NCBI GenBank assembly: GCA_018057825.1
Contig: JAGPCY010000004.1
Coordinates: forward strand, 62,001 to 126,000
Origin: Kofleriaceae bacterium
Lineage (GTDB): Bacteria > Myxococcota_A > Polyangia > Haliangiales > Haliangiaceae
Reading direction: 5' to 3'
Length of the DNA: 64,000 nt
The translations under genes were made by a program, and so were the position numbers. Shown here piece by piece: positions 416 to 8,846 of the stretch (positions are counted from its first letter, which is position 1; each line of letters starts with the position of its first letter). The notes under the pieces were generated by a model. It searched no databases, had not been told where the DNA came from, and saw only the letters and a list, made by a program, of their open reading frames with translations.

Positions 416-1252
416 ATGGCGCAGCCACGACTCATCGATCTCGGCTCGTTGCCGCGCGACCCCGATCGCGACGCGGCGCTGGTCGAGGTGCGCGCGCCGG
501 GCCGCGCTCGCGACGAGCTGATCCTCGGCGCGGACCTCGGCCGCCAGCTCGATCGGATCGAGGCCGAGCATCGCGATCGCGAGGCGCTGGCCAGGCTCGG
601 GCTTGCGCCGAAGGGACGCCTGCTGTTCGTCGGGCCACCGGGCTGCGGAAAGACCGCGTGCGCCGAGGTCCTGGCCGCTGACCTGGGGCTGCCGCTGGTG
701 TACGCCCGGTTCGATGGGATCGTGTCGTCGTACCTCGGGGAGACCGCCAGCAACCTGCGCCGCGTGTTCCAGTACGCCGGGCGGCGACCGTCGCTTCTGT
801 TCTTCGATGAGTTCGACGCCCTCGGCAAGCGGCGCGACGACCCTCATGAGCTGGGCGAGCTGAAGCGCGTGGTCGGCAGCTTCTTGCAGTTGCTCGACTC
901 GCACCCGCGCGGCGAGCTGGTGGTCGCAGCGACCAACCATGAGGGGCTCCTCGATGACGCCCTGTGGCGGCGTTTCGACGACGTGCTCTTCTTCGGCAAG
1001 CCCGACGAGCGGCAGCTCCTCGAGCTGCTGGAGCTTCGACTCCGCAGCGTCCGGAAGCGCGGGGCGGACCTCACGGCGATCGTCGCCGGGATGGGTGGGT
1101 TCTCGTTCGCCGATGCCGAGCGGGTCTGCCACGAGGCGATGAAGGCGATGGTCCTGGCGGGACGGAAGGAGCTCACCCAGGACCTTCTGCTGGGCGAGCT
1201 TGCGGAACAGCAGCGACGGCTTGCGCTCGCTGCGACGCGACCTAGACAATAG
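416..1252 (+). CDS. AAA-family ATPase of the ATPase/subtilase gene-pair type
   Basis: A 278-residue AAA module. It shows Walker A GPPGCGKT at residues 73-80, Walker B LLFFDEFD at 127-134, a sensor-1 ATN at 172-174 and an arginine pair RRFDD near 185 that fits the arginine-finger region. The pattern GLPLVYARFDGIVSSYLGET is typical of AAA proteins encoded directly upstream of subtilisin-like (S8) proteases in many bacteria, pairs often proposed to act in defence. The N-terminal helical region is shorter than I expect for that family. I chose the ATG at 416; an in-frame GTG at 365 would add 17 residues of poor-looking sequence. The next gene begins 6 nt downstream and looks like the remnant of the protease partner. 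Confidence 0.75.
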   Translation: MAQPRLIDLGSLPRDPDRDAALVEVRAPGRARDELILGADLGRQLDRIEAEHRDREALARLGLAPKGRLLFVGPPGCGKTACAEVLAADLGLPLVYARFDGIVSSYLGETASNLRRVFQYAGRRPSLLFFDEFDALGKRRDDPHELGELKRVVGSFLQLLDSHPRGELVVAATNHEGLLDDALWRRFDDVLFFGKPDERQLLELLELRLRSVRKRGADLTAIVAGMGGFSFADAERVCHEAMKAMVLAGRKELTQDLLLGELAEQQRRLALAATRPRQ

Positions 1253-1258
1253 TGGGCG

Positions 1259-1825
1259 ATGGCGGGCGACGAACGGTTCCCTCACCTCCGACTCCTGACC
1301 CCGAAGGCCTTCGATCGGCGCCGCGTCGTGCGACGGCCGCCCGGGCCACCCCCTCGGGTGCCAGCTACGCATGGGGCGCGCCTGCGCGATGAGATCGCGG
1401 CCGTGCGCGCCCGCCTGGACGAGGTTGACCGCGAGCGGCCCCGCGGCGTGGTGCTGACCTGGAACCTCGCACGCGGCGACGTGCCGATTGGCAGGGTCCA
1501 CGATGCCATCGTCGCGGCGAGCGCGGACGCGCCGCGCCAGCCTACGCCGGCGGCCAAAGTGTTCATGACCGGTTCGCTGTCGAAGACGAGGCAGAGCGGC
1601 GGCACGGTGCAGAAGAACGTGTTCACCTGGGTTCGCGGCGACCACGGGGAGACCTATCGGCTGGCGGTCGTTGCGACCGCGCCACGACCGGGGCCTCCTG
1701 GGGCGACGCAGCGGTTTGCGGTGGTGGTGGGCCTGGCGGTGGAAGACGCCACCATCGACCTGCACGCCGAGCTGCGGGCGCGGCTCGCCGCCGGTCGCGT
1801 GCGCGTGCGGGTGGGGACCGAGTAG
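1259..1825 (+). CDS. Subtilase-partner remnant lacking the protease core
   Basis: A 188-residue protein. Its first ~57 residues (basic and proline-rich, then a helical segment HGARLRDEIAAVRARLDEV) resemble the N-terminus of S8 proteases paired with AAA ATPases. Its last ~120 residues (LTWNLARG, then GGTVQKNVF, QRFAVVVGLAVED and LHAELRARL) resemble the beta-rich C-terminal domain of the same proteases. The several hundred residues between, with the Asp-His-Ser catalytic triad, are absent. The two ends are joined in frame, as by an internal deletion. There is no frameshift, so a short protein could still be made, perhaps as a non-catalytic partner of the ATPase. The family link is from pattern memory, not from a search. 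Confidence 0.55.
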   Translation: MAGDERFPHLRLLTPKAFDRRRVVRRPPGPPPRVPATHGARLRDEIAAVRARLDEVDRERPRGVVLTWNLARGDVPIGRVHDAIVAASADAPRQPTPAAKVFMTGSLSKTRQSGGTVQKNVFTWVRGDHGETYRLAVVATAPRPGPPGATQRFAVVVGLAVEDATIDLHAELRARLAAGRVRVRVGTE

Positions 1826-1933
1826 GGCGGGGCGCGGGCCGGGCGCGGCCACGGCGATCGTGGCTAGCCGAGCGAGCACCGAAGGGGGGCTCAACATGCG
1901 CGGGGCGTGGGCGACTCGACAGACGAGGTCCCC

Positions 1934-2767
1934 ATGTCGCCCATCCCATCCCGCAGCGTCTTTCGTGTCGTATCGATCCTTGCCCTGGCGACGGCCGCGT
2001 GTAGCCAAGAGTCGACCGAGGGCGCCGAGCTCATGGGTCCGATGGGTCCTGCGGGTCCTGCGGGTCCTGCGGGTCCTGCGGGTCCTGCGGGTCCTGCGGG
2101 GCCTGCGGGAAGCCTGGGTCCCGTCGGTCCTGCCGGTCCTGCTGGAGCCGCCGGTCTCCCCGGCATCGACGGACAGCCGGGAGCGCCGGGGGAGCGTGGA
2201 CCCGAAGGCCCCCGCGGCGAGATCGGCAAGGTCGGGCCGACGGGCCCGAGCGGTCCTCGCGGTGACGTCGGTCCGGCCGGGCCCGCGGGCCCGCGCGGCG
2301 AGGACGGCGCGGCCGGGCCTCCGGGTCCGCAGGGGGTGCCCGGCCCGGTCGAGGTGTACCTCAGCGCGCAGATCTCGGGCGTGGTCTCGGCGGGTGGCTG
2401 GGTCGAGGTCACCGGGGCCGGTCAGCTCCTCACGCTGACCGAGGGCCGGACGGTCGACCTCGAGGCCGACGGCACGCTGGTGGCGCTTTTCGGGCTCGAT
2501 CCGAGCGGGCGGTGCGGCGTGCGCTTCGTGGTCGATGGCGCACCGCTGGTGGCCGCCGACTTCGGCGACCGCGCGGTCGGCTGCGATCGGGTCGACCCGA
2601 CCATGGTCGAGCGTTGGTGTCCGTGGACGATGCGGCAAGAGGTGGTGCTCCCGCCGGGCCCGCACACGATCGCCGTCGAGGTCCGCAGCGACCCGGCCTT
2701 CGATGCCCAGTGCAGCGTGCCGGCGGATCCGTCGTTCCAGACCAAGCTCTGGGTCCTGGCGCGCTGA
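1934..2767 (+). CDS. Collagen-like (Gly-X-Y) lipoprotein
   Basis: A 277-residue protein. The ATG at 1934 follows a GAGG ribosome site and gives a signal peptide ending in a lipobox with Cys at residue 23. Residues 35-139 are 35 uninterrupted Gly-X-Y triplets, including seven successive GPA, so a collagen-like triple-helical rod is expected. The last ~135 residues form a beta-rich domain with six cysteines after the rod (for example GRCGVRF, GCDR, RWCPW, AQCSV), reminiscent of the globular trimerising heads on bacterial collagen-like proteins. It is probably an outer-membrane-anchored trimeric surface stalk. An earlier start at 1907 is possible but would spoil the signal peptide. No operon partner is evident; the next gene is convergent. 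Confidence 0.8.
2045..2107 (+). repeat. 9-bp tandem repeat coding for Gly-Pro-Ala
   Basis: Seven copies of a 9-bp unit, GGTCCTGCG, six of them identical and the last with one change, inside the collagen-like gene. Identical codons (rather than only identical residues) suggest recent slippage, so the copy number, and hence stalk length, could vary in multiples of three residues without loss of frame. Confidence 0.85.
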
Positions 2768-2807
2768 GGCGGCGGAGCGGGGCGAGGCGCCGCCGCGCGA
2801 GCGGCGG

Positions 2808-3761
2808 TCAGCGGCCGCGGCCTTCGAGCAGCGCCAGGAAGGGCTTCGAGCGCTCGAGCTGGGCGGCGGCCCGGCTGTACAGATCGGCCCGGCGAGCCGT
2901 CGAGATGCCGAGGGTCGTGAGCAGCTCGGCGACCCGCGGATCGGTCTCGACCTCGGGCTCGCCGGGCGCGACCCCGGCGACCAGATCGCGGGCGATGACG
3001 TCGGCGACCGCGATCGCCTCGGCGCCGGTCCGCTGCGCCACCGGTACCTTGTCGCGGAGCTGCGGCTTGAGGACGTTGTGGTGGGCCTCGATCGGCACCG
3101 CCAGGGCCGGCGGCAAGCGCCAGCGTCGCGCCAGCTCGCGGCCGATCTGATCGTGGCGCGGGATGCCCAGGTGCTCCTCGGCCATCGCCCACGGCACGCC
3201 GTCGCGGTGGATCGCGTCCTGGATCGCGACCACGCGATCGGGGATGAGCTTGCACTGAGCGATCTTGCCCATGTCGTGCAGGAGCCCGGCGGTGAACAGC
3301 GCGTCGGGATCGCGGTGGCCGAGCTCCTCGCCGATCACGCGCGCGGTCGCGCCGACCGCCAGCGAGTGGAGCCACAGCGACCGCGGATCGAAGGTCGCCC
3401 CGTCGGGCAGGGCCAAGGTCTCGAGCACCGACACCGTCAAGACGAGCTGGTAGATCGTGTTGAAGCCGACGAACGGGATGGCTCGGCTGACGTCGGTCAC
3501 GCCGCCGGGGATCGCGAAGTACGCCGAGTTGACCAGGCGCAGGAGCTTGGCCGCCAGGCTGGGATCGCTGCCGATCAGCTCGGCGACGTGCTGGACCGAG
3601 GTCCGCCGGGAGTTCATGGCCTCGGTCAAGCGCAGCGCGACCAGCGGCAGGGTCGGCAGGGAGTCGAGCAGCGCGCCGAGCTGTTCGACGCTGACCGTCG
3701 CGGGGGCGAGGGCCGCGCCGTTCGCGGCGGCCGCGATCGCGCGGGGGGGCGGGGCGCTCAT
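2808..3761 (-). CDS. HDOD-domain protein
   Basis: A 317-residue cytoplasmic protein. After a low-complexity N-terminus it has a HDOD domain (about residues 27-225): LPTLPLVALRLTEA, then DPSLAAKLLRLVNSA, a hydrophobic helix and LLHDMGKIAQ with the HD pair at 162-163. HDOD proteins are non-catalytic relatives of HD phosphodiesterases and usually act as signalling scaffolds in motility, gliding or cyclic-di-GMP circuits. The C-terminal ~90 residues are helical with no recognised output domain. It is the last gene of an apparent motA-motB operon. Its ATG overlaps the stop of the upstream lipoprotein gene by the ATGA arrangement, so it is probably translationally coupled. Confidence 0.85.
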   Translation of the reverse strand: MSAPPPRAIAAAANGAALAPATVSVEQLGALLDSLPTLPLVALRLTEAMNSRRTSVQHVAELIGSDPSLAAKLLRLVNSAYFAIPGGVTDVSRAIPFVGFNTIYQLVLTVSVLETLALPDGATFDPRSLWLHSLAVGATARVIGEELGHRDPDALFTAGLLHDMGKIAQCKLIPDRVVAIQDAIHRDGVPWAMAEEHLGIPRHDQIGRELARRWRLPPALAVPIEAHHNVLKPQLRDKVPVAQRTGAEAIAVADVIARDLVAGVAPGEPEVETDPRVAELLTTLGISTARRADLYSRAAAQLERSKPFLALLEGRGR

Positions 3762-4180: not shown

Positions 4181-4691
4181 CGATCGCCACTCCGAGGCCA
4201 AGGGCGACCTGGGCGACCGCGTTGCCCCGAGGCAGATCGGTCCCGGCGATATAGACGTCACCAGCGAGGTCGAGGCACGGCCGGGCCGCGCCCATCGGCC
4301 AGCACCAGGTGGCGCCGACGGTGGCGCCGTAGAGGGTGTAGGGCTTGGCGATCACGCGCGCGCCGGCCCGGACCCGGGTCCGCGGTCCCATCGCCATCGC
4401 CAGCCCGCCTTCGCCGCCGACCCCGGTGCGATCCAACGTCTCGACGGTGAGGCCGCCGTAGCCGTAGGTGCGCGGCGCATCGGACAGCGCGAGCGCGGCG
4501 GTGGCAGTGATGAGCAGCGGCGTGGCCCGCACCGCGCCGCGACCCGCGCCGCCGCCGGCGGCCAGGCCGTAGGCGACCCGCAGATCGACCCCGACCAGGG
4601 CCTCGGCGTGCGCCGGGCTCGGCCGAACCATCGCCCACCCCAGCGTCAACCCGAGGACGGCGAGACCGGCGAGGCGGCGCGGCGGAGTCAT
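4170..4691 (-). CDS. Predicted outer-membrane beta-barrel-like protein in the mot operon
   Basis: A 173-residue protein with a clear Sec signal peptide (basic start, hydrophobic core, AHA-EA cleavage near residue 29). The mature part is made of alternating glycine- and aromatic-containing strands such as VDLRVAYGLAAGGG, TYGYGGLTVETL, RVRAGARVIAKPYTLYG and VAQVALGLGVAID, which look like small outer-membrane barrel strands. I recognise no named family. It starts 3 nt after motB and overlaps the downstream lipoprotein gene, so it is co-transcribed with the stator genes. An envelope role linked to the motor is possible but is inferred from context only. Confidence 0.55.
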   Translation of the reverse strand: MTPPRRLAGLAVLGLTLGWAMVRPSPAHAEALVGVDLRVAYGLAAGGGAGRGAVRATPLLITATAALALSDAPRTYGYGGLTVETLDRTGVGGEGGLAMAMGPRTRVRAGARVIAKPYTLYGATVGATWCWPMGAARPCLDLAGDVYIAGTDLPRGNAVAQVALGLGVAIDAP

Positions 4692-4694
4692 CGA

Positions 4695-5633
4695 TCACGG
4701 CTCGAGCAAGCGCCGTGCCTGGGACGCGGTGCCGCGGATCATCGCCCGGACGCTGCTGGTATGCAGGGCGTCGCCATCCTTGGCGGCCTCCGTCAACGGC
4801 GGCGTCGCCTCCTCTGTCGGGGGCGTCGGCTCCGTCGGGGGCGTCGTCGGCGCGGCGCCGCTGGCCACCGGGGCGCTGCGCAGGAGGATCGACAGGCGGC
4901 GGTTGCGGGCCGACAAGGGCGCGTCGGGCAGGAGCGGCACCGCGGCGCCCCGGCCGATCACGCCGACCACGCGGTCGCGGTCGAGGCCGGCGCGCTCGAG
5001 GATCTTGCGGGCGGCGCTGGCGCGCTCGAAGGACAGCTCCCAGTTGGTCTTGTCGGCGCCGGTCGGGAACGGCGCGGCGTCGGTGTGGCCCTGGATCTCG
5101 ATCGGGGCCTCATGGGAGGCCAGGACCGGGACCAGCTTGACCAGGAAGTCGCGCAGCGCCGGCTTGAGCGCCGACGACGAGGTCTCGAACAGCATGCCGT
5201 CGTCGCTGTCGTCGACCTCGATCAGGACGCCCTCGGGCGTGGCCACGACCCGGACCTTGCTCGCGACCTCGGCCAGGTCGACGTGGTTGTCGGCCATGGT
5301 GCGGATCTGCTTCTGCACCGAGCGCGCCTGGTCGTCGAGGGACTGCTCGCCATGAGGTGGCGGCACGCCCGACTTCTCCATGATCGACGGGACGTAGGTC
5401 GCGCCGCCGTTCATCGCCAGCTCGGCGTCGGGCAGGACGCCGGTGCGGAAGTAGTCGGCGATCTCCTTGCGCGACTTGGAGTCGGTCGACGCCAGGAGCC
5501 AGAGCACCATGAACAGCGCCATCATCGCGGTGACGAAGTCGGCGTAGGCGATCTTCCAGGCCCCGCCGTGGTGGCCGTGGCCACCGACCTTCTTGATGAC
5601 CTTGCGACGCGATGGTTGCGGAGGGGGCGCCAT
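4695..5633 (-). CDS. motB: Flagellar stator protein MotB
   Basis: A 312-residue stator subunit. The N-terminus has one membrane helix with WKIAYADFVTAMMALFMVLW; Asp32 is the conserved proton-carrying aspartate. The region resembles proton-type (E. coli-like) MotB more than sodium-type PomB. A peptidoglycan-binding OmpA-like domain follows (about 130-265), with EIQGHTDAAP and a NWELSFERASAARKIL helix. The tail is rich in Thr-Pro-Glu. It starts 2 nt after the motA stop and is followed within 3 nt by an outer-membrane-like gene. Together with MotA it would form the ion channel that turns the rotor through FliG. Confidence 0.95.
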   Translation of the reverse strand: MAPPPQPSRRKVIKKVGGHGHHGGAWKIAYADFVTAMMALFMVLWLLASTDSKSRKEIADYFRTGVLPDAELAMNGGATYVPSIMEKSGVPPPHGEQSLDDQARSVQKQIRTMADNHVDLAEVASKVRVVATPEGVLIEVDDSDDGMLFETSSSALKPALRDFLVKLVPVLASHEAPIEIQGHTDAAPFPTGADKTNWELSFERASAARKILERAGLDRDRVVGVIGRGAAVPLLPDAPLSARNRRLSILLRSAPVASGAAPTTPPTEPTPPTEEATPPLTEAAKDGDALHTSSVRAMIRGTASQARRLLEP

Positions 5634-5635
5634 GA

Positions 5636-6490
5636 TCAGCTTCCCTTCAAGGACTGCATGGCCTTGTCGGCCTCGGAGAACGACGGCCGCTCGTCGTGAA
5701 AGATCACCTTGCGGCCGAACTCGATCGCGGTGGCCGGGGCGGCGCCGCGCATCGACGCGATGAGCGAGCTCTTGATGACCTCGAGGAGCCGGCGGTGGTG
5801 GGTCTCCTGGATCTCGGTCGCGGTGATGAGCGGCGAGACCAGGCCGTAGGACAGGAGGATGCCGAGGAAGGTCCCGACCAGGGCGGCGGCGACGTGGTGG
5901 CCGATCACCGCGGGCGGGGCGTCCATGTGGCCCATGGTCACGATCACGCCGAGCACCGCGGCGACGATGCCGATCCCGGGCAACGCGTCGGACACCGTGC
6001 GCAAGAGGCCCGAGGACATGTGGTTGCACGCCATCCAGGTGTCGAGCTCGGCGTCGAGCAAGGCCTCGAGGTCGTCGGCCGAGACGCCGTTGGCCATGGC
6101 TTGCAGGGCCTCGCCCAGGAAGGTGCGGAACAGCTCGTTCTTGGCCACCACCGGGTACTTGCGGAAGATCTCGCTCTTGGTCGGGTCGGCGGCGTGGGTC
6201 TCGAGGGCCAGGACGCCCTGGCGACGGGCCAGCGTCAGGAGCTCATAGATGAGCTTCAGGACGTCGAGGTAGTCCTTCTTCTTGGGCGTGGTGTCCTGCA
6301 GCGCCATCACCAGCACGTGCTTGACCCGGGCGCGCATCTGCCCGGGCGACGAGATCATGAGGGTGCCGATCGCGGCGCCGACGATGACTACGAGCTCGGA
6401 CGGCTGGAACAGGATCGGAGGTTTTCCTCCGGCCATGATGAAGCCGCCGAGCACACAACCGAACACGACGAGGATTCCGAGCTTGCCCAT
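5636..6490 (-). CDS. motA: Flagellar stator protein MotA
   Basis: A 284-residue inner-membrane protein starting at the ATG at 6490 (MGKLGILVVFGCVLGGFIM). It has four expected membrane helices, with a cytoplasmic loop between helices 2 and 3 that contacts FliG. The conserved proline segments are present: DALPGIGIVAAVLGVI (helix 3) and GTFLGILLSYGLVSP (helix 4). Length and motifs match the proton-driven MotA family. It is the first gene of a minus-strand operon with motB, and divergent from a response-regulator gene 132 nt away. I see no convincing flagellar sigma-factor promoter in that gap. Confidence 0.95.
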   Translation of the reverse strand: MGKLGILVVFGCVLGGFIMAGGKPPILFQPSELVVIVGAAIGTLMISSPGQMRARVKHVLVMALQDTTPKKKDYLDVLKLIYELLTLARRQGVLALETHAADPTKSEIFRKYPVVAKNELFRTFLGEALQAMANGVSADDLEALLDAELDTWMACNHMSSGLLRTVSDALPGIGIVAAVLGVIVTMGHMDAPPAVIGHHVAAALVGTFLGILLSYGLVSPLITATEIQETHHRRLLEVIKSSLIASMRGAAPATAIEFGRKVIFHDERPSFSEADKAMQSLKGS

Positions 6491-6622
6491 GGCGATAGGC
6501 GAATCGACTGCCCGCGCATTCCGTTGAGGCCGTGCGCCGATCCGCTCCGGCCTGGGGGCGGTGGCCCCTACACCTGCGGCGCGGGCGGTCGATACCAGCG
6601 GACGAGAGCCAAGAGGTCCCCG

Positions 6623-7024
6623 ATGCTGTTCCAGATCCTGGTCTGCGATGACGATCCGGAAATCCGCGCCGCGCTGCGCCGCACCTTGTGTCGTCACGAG
6701 GTGACGACGGTGGCCAGCCCGGCGGAGGGGCTCGCGGCGCTCAAGGCCCGGCGCTACCACGCGGTGATCTCCGACTTCGAGCTGGGCGCGGAGAGCGACG
6801 GTCTGGAGTTCCTCCAGGTGGTCCGCTTGATGTACCCCGACACCGTCCGGTTCCTGGTCACCGGCAGCCGCGATCTTCAGGTCGTGATCCGCGCGGTCAA
6901 CGAGGGCTCGGTCCATCGCTACTTCCTGAAGCCGTGGGACGACGAGACCCTGGCCGGGGCGATCGCGGTCCAGCTCCACGCTCACGGAGGCGGCTCCGAA
7001 CGCCCGGCGCCGGCGCCGACGTGA
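6623..7024 (+). CDS. Single-domain response regulator
   Basis: A 133-residue stand-alone receiver domain. The acidic pocket is CDDDPE at the start, the phospho-acceptor is Asp51 (ISDFE), the T/S switch lies in LVTGS, and Lys103 sits in FLKPW. The FLKPWDDETL ending is typical of receivers otherwise found on RpfG-like or kinase-linked regulators. There is no output domain, so it would act by protein contact. An AAGAGG ribosome site precedes the ATG. It ends in a GTGA overlap with the OmpA-like gene, so the two are coupled. It is divergent from motA, which makes a motor-related target plausible but unproven. Confidence 0.85.
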   Translation: MLFQILVCDDDPEIRAALRRTLCRHEVTTVASPAEGLAALKARRYHAVISDFELGAESDGLEFLQVVRLMYPDTVRFLVTGSRDLQVVIRAVNEGSVHRYFLKPWDDETLAGAIAVQLHAHGGGSERPAPAPT

Positions 7025-7548
7025 CCGCCGCGCGCGTGGTCCTCGCGATCGCGCTGGCCGCCGGCGGCGCCGCCGCTGAGCCCGCCACCCGACCGCTACC
7101 CGAGCCCTGCACCTGTCCCACTCCGGAGGCCCGCCATGATCGCGTTGTCGATGACTCCCGGGTTGCGCGCCGGCCCGTGTCGCGAGGCGAGCGCGCCGTC
7201 CGGCCCCGCGGCCCGGCTCGCTTCGGCCTCGGCGACGAGATCTACTTCGCCGCCGGCCGCGCGCGGATCCGCAGTCGCGAGCGGGCCGTCGTCGCGGCGG
7301 TCGTCGATCGCTGGCAGCTCCATCCCCAGTGGCGGCTGCGTGTGATCGGCCACGCCGCCAAGGTCGGCGATGGTCGCGGCAGCCGACGCCTGAGCCAGCT
7401 GCGCGCCGACCGGGTCAAGGCCGCCCTGGTGGCGGCCGGCGTGCCGGCGGCGCAGATCGAGGCGGTCGGGGTCGGCGCCGACGCGCCGGGGCTGCACCCG
7501 ACGGCGAGTCGGCGGGTCGAGTTCGAGGTCGTGGTCGACGCGCGGTGA
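7021..7548 (+). CDS. Secreted OmpA-like peptidoglycan-binding protein
   Basis: A 175-residue protein starting at GTG 7021, which overlaps the stop of the receiver gene. A short hydrophobic signal segment (VVLAIALAAGGAAAEP) is followed by a low-complexity linker with an early CTC. A C-terminal OmpA domain of ~100 residues begins GDEIYFAAGRARI and continues with RLRVIGHAAKVGDG and LSQLRADRVKAALVAAGV. Such domains bind diaminopimelate in peptidoglycan. It may be a periplasmic anchor protein. Its position beside motAB and a receiver domain suggests a link to the motor or cell wall, by context only. Confidence 0.75.
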   Translation: MTAARVVLAIALAAGGAAAEPATRPLPEPCTCPTPEARHDRVVDDSRVARRPVSRGERAVRPRGPARFGLGDEIYFAAGRARIRSRERAVVAAVVDRWQLHPQWRLRVIGHAAKVGDGRGSRRLSQLRADRVKAALVAAGVPAAQIEAVGVGADAPGLHPTASRRVEFEVVVDAR

Positions 7549-7779
7549 CGACCGATCCGCCGCAGCGCGCGTCGTGGCCCACCGGGGCCGCGGGGGCGGC
7601 GCCGTCGCCGGTACCCGCGCGGCATCCGTGCCCCGCCACCCAGCCGGGTACGCGGCTACCCAGGGCCGATCGACGCACCACCCACTCCGGAGTTCGCGGC
7701 CTTGAGCGATCTCAGGCGCTTCGCCGCGACGCGTGACTGTAAGCCAGCACGCCGGCCCCGGCGAGCTCGCTTCGCGGGT

Positions 7780-7795
7780 TGGATCGGTTCTCGCT
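7780..7795 (+). promoter_or_regulatory. Weak sigma-54-like promoter before the activator gene
   Basis: TGGATCGGTTCTCGCT has the GG and GC doublets separated by 10 nt and matches 9 of the 12 fixed consensus positions. It ends 13 nt before the ATG at 7809, similar to the better matches in this window. It could mean autoregulation, but the match is poor. Confidence 0.25.
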
Positions 7796-7808
7796 AAGGC
7801 TCCGGGTC

Positions 7809-8846
<1,038 letters not shown>

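Follow-up and report, generated by a model that had tools for sequence, protein, structure and literature searches.

A protease-dead and probably disarmed derivative of the IetAS defence pair in a Kofleriaceae genome

A gene pair at the beginning of a 64-kb stretch of DNA from a Kofleriaceae bacterium (the whole stretch that was analysed, referred to here as the window) consists of an AAA ATPase of the IetA family followed by an IetS partner from which the S8 protease core is missing. The locus is best explained as a protease-dead deletion derivative of IetAS, one that has probably been disarmed. A single in-frame deletion would have taken out the whole catalytic core, fusing the first ~58 residues of IetS to a more distal portion of its C-terminal domain, and the IetA gene would separately have lost its N-terminal helical module. 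The deletion event may be fairly recent, and the ATPase and the remaining stub may still be produced, with the stub possibly still touching IetA through the retained IetS ends. No proteolytic effector would be delivered by such a pair, which would leave the cell without IetAS-type defence.

The IetA gene and its surroundings

The window comprises bases 62001-126000 of a 335-kb contig (C16) in an 8.9-Mb genome. The ATPase gene occupies positions 416-1252 of the forward strand (ATG at 416, 278 amino acids; an alternative in-frame GTG start at 365 is possible) and, judged by its profile matches, is the IetA gene of an IetAS pair. The PADLOC IetA profile (PDLC02196) matched residues 10-267 with an E-value of 3.7e-85, Pfam AAA matched with 1.1e-27, and the NCBIfam entry NF042959, "anti-phage ATPase IteA", matched with 6.6e-74 and 249 bits, which is below the equivalog cut-off of 510 for that family. 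In line with the original prediction that all catalytic motifs are present, Walker A (GPPGCGKT), Walker B (FFDEFD), the sensor (ATN) and the arginine positions of WRRFD are intact. Moreover, of the 45 positions with a conservation of 90% or more among IetAs, 43 are kept, a value in the middle of the range for 42 sequences, and the window IetA showed no detectable relaxation of constraint.

The profile match begins only at profile position ~66. In the alignment, a helical module at the N-terminus, ~55 residues long with the consensus ATAxQxKALIxSHxEGDxxF...GHxxxAxxLR and present in all 12 relatives compared, is absent from the window protein, which begins after it; the original prediction had overlooked this loss. 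The ATG at 416 is separated by 84 nt from the stop of the preceding gene, which encodes a membrane-type NTPase, starts outside the window and contributes its 3' end at positions 1-331 on the same strand.

Seen over the upstream sequence (C16:58269-62331, piece L008), this gene (~6172-8331, with a GV-repeat region) follows a PNP-type nucleosidase/NTPase gene (4269-6122) that matches the PADLOC "Effector PN-superfamily" profile at 5e-70. Both lie on the same strand as the IetA gene and are spaced like an operon with it. Homologs of the membrane-type NTPase occur in a few other genomes, in one of which (G111) the gene is found ~10 kb from an IetA gene on the same contig. The region looks like a defence island, and the upstream genes are context and candidate members only. 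Within L008, at 6318-6713, ~24 near-perfect 12-nt tandem repeats give rise to the GVAV/GVAF stretch in the NTPase and form a likely slippage site. Just downstream of the pair, positions 1907-2767 of the window encode a protein of collagen-like GPxGPA repeats, the start of which resembles that of a lipoprotein.

An IetS reduced to its two ends

On re-reading, the reported gene coordinates were confirmed: after a gap of 6 nt from the IetA stop, a second forward-strand gene runs from the ATG at 1259 to the stop at 1825 and encodes 188 amino acids. Taken alone, the protein has no significant match in Pfam, NCBIfam or PADLOC and no Peptidase_S8 (PF00082) match, and single-sequence searches returned few, weak and scattered matches; one of these, an 889-aa frame (L014), codes for a different kind of membrane protein and was rejected as an IetS. 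For a comparison by profile, the partner gene downstream of IetA was taken from 40 loci of the same class, and the 30 that were full-length IetS (745-861 aa) provided separate profiles of the first ~62 residues, the core and the last ~140 residues. The N-terminal profile matched residues 1-55 of the 188-aa protein with 20.9 bits (conditional E 1.9e-8) and the C-terminal profile reached 29.4 bits (best domain 28.7, conditional E 6e-11), while the core profile gave no match. In all other frames of the window the top scores were 6.4 and 6.5 bits for the N- and C-terminal profiles, and among 5000 shuffles they were 13.8 and 14.8.

By these comparisons, the 188-aa protein is an IetS cut down to its two ends, as had been predicted from the translation. 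The idea that it is unrelated to IetS and simply has its normal length could draw on the lack of a significant family match for the protein alone and on its few homologs in single-sequence searches. It is refuted by the IetS profile scores, with both halves far above shuffles and other frames, by the order of the two segments and by their place beside IetA, where IetS is expected, and no unrelated family matched the whole protein.

Alignment with three full-length IetS proteins (L049, L140 and L054) places the break precisely. Residues 1-58 of the stub (positions 1259-1432), with an H..RLR helix predicted at residues 35-59, correspond to the IetS N-terminus, and residue 60 onward (residues 60-188, positions 1436-1822) corresponds to residue 681 onward of the 816-aa L049 protein, so aligned that the junction falls at positions 1424-1438. 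Missing are ~620 residues, which take in the whole S8 domain together with the region that precedes it, and the first strand or strands of the C-terminal domain. A junction near residue 57 had been predicted and agrees with this mapping. The ~120 residues that had been assigned to the C-terminal end are indeed related to the IetS C-terminal domain, but the break lies inside that beta domain and not at its border, a reach of the deletion that had gone unnoticed. The remainder retains the GTVQ, R(F/Y)AVVV and (I)DLHAEL motifs. There is no stop or frameshift within the frame, and its GC content by codon position (79/56/85%) is of the coding type.

A sequencing or assembly artefact, with a full-length gene in the organism, might be suspected in a draft genome of 84 contigs. 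Such an error is highly improbable here, as the locus is internal to its contig of 335 kb, the reading frame continues exactly across the joint and the codon structure matches, and a collapse of 1.86 kb would be unlikely where no repeat flanks it and no long repeat spans the joint.

A second core-less locus and the decay of IetS among relatives

Related loci were surveyed with the C-terminal profile in the same class, in a phylum sample and in additional classes of that phylum, with the length of the open frame read at each of ~75 loci. Only two of these ~75 C-domain loci hold a core-less, in-frame IetS, the window and a locus in another genome (G227:C4, L078), and no third N+C fusion was found among them. 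At the second locus, a 218-aa partner beside a full-length IetA (326 aa) matches positions 1-59 of the N-terminal profile, fused directly and in frame to the C-terminal domain. This domain shares 70.6% identity with residues 663-822 of IetS (827 aa) from a normal pair (L063), whose IetA is 83% identical to that of G227. The two core-less loci are alike in having IetA followed by an in-frame IetS without a core and with an N-terminal break at about residue 59; they differ in that the G227 IetA is full length and its partner keeps one more C-domain strand (VELRVTLSYF), absent from the window stub. In a tree of 42 IetAs well-supported branches force two origins for them, so that on this phylogeny the joints must have arisen independently. 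The search for the same junction at homologous loci thus yielded one other case, similar in its N-terminal break and different in its C-terminal one.

The recurrence in G227 with a near-identical N-terminal break is the best point for retention of the pair, and for the possible, though doubtful, reading that it is a retained non-proteolytic pair. The core-less IetS would then act as an adaptor, lid or brake, its N-terminal helix and C-terminal domain being the parts that dock on IetA, and IetA would remodel a target without cutting or be restrained. Two independent in-frame joints beside a motif-intact IetA would fit such a role, as would the tight 6-nt spacing of the window pair and the persistence elsewhere of intact IetA genes without IetS. 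Both joints are in frame and no out-of-frame joint was found, an outcome expected by chance about once in nine, which is suggestive, not decisive. On the other side stand the rarity of core-less loci (two of ~75), the different C-terminal sides of the two junctions, the loss of the IetA N-terminal module in the window and not in G227, the absence of close relatives showing long-term retention, and the moderate model of the window stub. The AlphaFold2 model of the stub, from a family alignment, has the helix at residues 35-59 and part of a beta domain (mean pLDDT 68.5, pTM 0.49), and that of the G227 protein has a fuller strand set (pLDDT 63.3, pTM 0.53). A PDB fold search gave no significant match for either, both models being of moderate confidence, and neither tells whether the stub folds. 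A recurrent non-proteolytic form of IetAS, whose IetA ring with a core-less IetS would remodel or sequester its target instead of feeding a protease, is rather unlikely.

Decay of IetS, by comparison, is common among relatives, through frameshifts, IS insertions, remnants and IetA genes left without IetS. The IetS gene is frameshifted at three loci (L052, L273 and L277) and reduced to a C-terminal remnant at three (L272, L274 and L266), and an intact IetA stands without a downstream IetS at L060 and L071. No IetS lies downstream of IetA at L068 either (771-3756, genome G024), where a gene for an S8+PPC protein is found immediately upstream. On contig G170:C198, the IetA of L063 (at 11664, with full IetS) and that of L071 (at 33319, without IetS) lie 21 kb apart. 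Two Klebsiella conjugative plasmids (L259, L262) carry IetS genes disrupted by insertion sequences. The other short C-domain frames examined (G238, G262, G172, G159, G287, G295 and others) lie at contig ends, are frameshifted, or are remnants that lack the N segment and IetA. Many incomplete defence systems were likewise reported in a survey of environmental genomes, which pointed to genetic erosion and noted that solitary genes can remain active (PMC10924106). No description of a core-less IetS was found in the open-access literature.

The closest IetA relatives of the window, L049 (G221) and L140 (Deltaproteobacteria MAG Zod_Metabat.542), share 46-48% identity with it and have full-length IetS proteins of ~790-816 aa. 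Six genomes of the same genus lack an ortholog of the locus. Seven S8 genes are present in the host genome (G000); four of them give weak matches to the IetS core profile, and the C-terminal profile matches none. The C-domain search of this genome finds the window locus only, so that it holds no other IetS, and no other IetA was found in it. Because the S8 core is gone, IetAS-type proteolysis from the window locus is impossible, and because the genome has no other IetS as well, a disarmed derivative is favoured over an adaptor pair.

The host genome also bears on the proposal that the stub is a dominant-negative protein or decoy, protective against other IetAS systems or the host's own IetA, since its retained segments could compete for IetA binding or cap the AAA ring. 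This is improbable, given that the host has no other IetA or IetS and that no plasmid or phage record searched with the window stub held a relative. The G227 protein matched two phage records, both short and unannotated, and the one that was read is a 1.6-kb fragment. Its plasmid matches, among those opened of 410 records, were full-length, IS-broken, frameshifted or C-terminal IetS fragments, and no core-less pair was among them.

Constraint and the age of the deletion

Divergence of the two core-less proteins is as expected for their IetA partners: the window C-domain is 24% identical to its nearest kin, as predicted from an IetA identity of 46-47%, and likewise the C-domains of L078 and L063 are 71% identical at an IetA identity of 83%. 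Both stub segments keep roughly as many of their conserved residues as the nearest full-length kin do, and departures from conserved C-domain residues number 19 of 84 in L078 as against 21 of 84 in the intact L063. No relaxed constraint was therefore detectable in either core-less C-domain, while dN/dS is uninformative because synonymous sites are saturated. Since relaxed constraint is undetectable, the deletion would be either recent or tolerated in a protein that is used. These features also speak for an adaptor, yet a recent deletion would show the same lack of relaxation, and there is no close relative by which to date it.

The original prediction had offered a decayed defence pair or a natural non-proteolytic version and had preferred a retained product. 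A core-less AAA/subtilase pair is what was found; the preference is not established, as an open frame under unrelaxed constraint also fits a recent deletion, and decay is favoured over retention. Counted for disarming are the profile matches of both ends without the core or any S8 match, the losses of the IetA module and of C-domain strand, the common decay of IetS, the lack of a same-genus ortholog and the full-length IetS of the closest relatives. Counted against it are the absence of erosion (an uninterrupted frame, the 43 conserved IetA positions, predicted C-domain identity and coding periodicity), the near-identical N-terminal break in G227 without excess lineage-specific changes, and the two in-frame joints.

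Comparison with full-length IetAS pairs

As of 2023, how IetAS works had yet to be described (PMC9958689). Going by the protein families, the presumed division of work in full-length pairs is unfolding or activation by IetA and cutting by IetS. A natural IetAS free of its protease core would reveal which IetS segments are turned towards IetA and whether the ATPase does anything by itself. In the case of a dead pair, the locus shows how a defence pair is disarmed, with the effector core lost first and cleanly and the ATPase engine left intact. The window locus resembles known IetAS pairs in gene order, spacing, an IetA AAA module with all motifs and the N- and C-terminal segments of IetS, and differs from them in lacking the S8 catalytic domain and the IetA N-terminal module and in its incomplete C-terminal domain. 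L049 and L140, its nearest kin by IetA, have by contrast a full-length IetS, and the L049 IetA has the N-terminal module.
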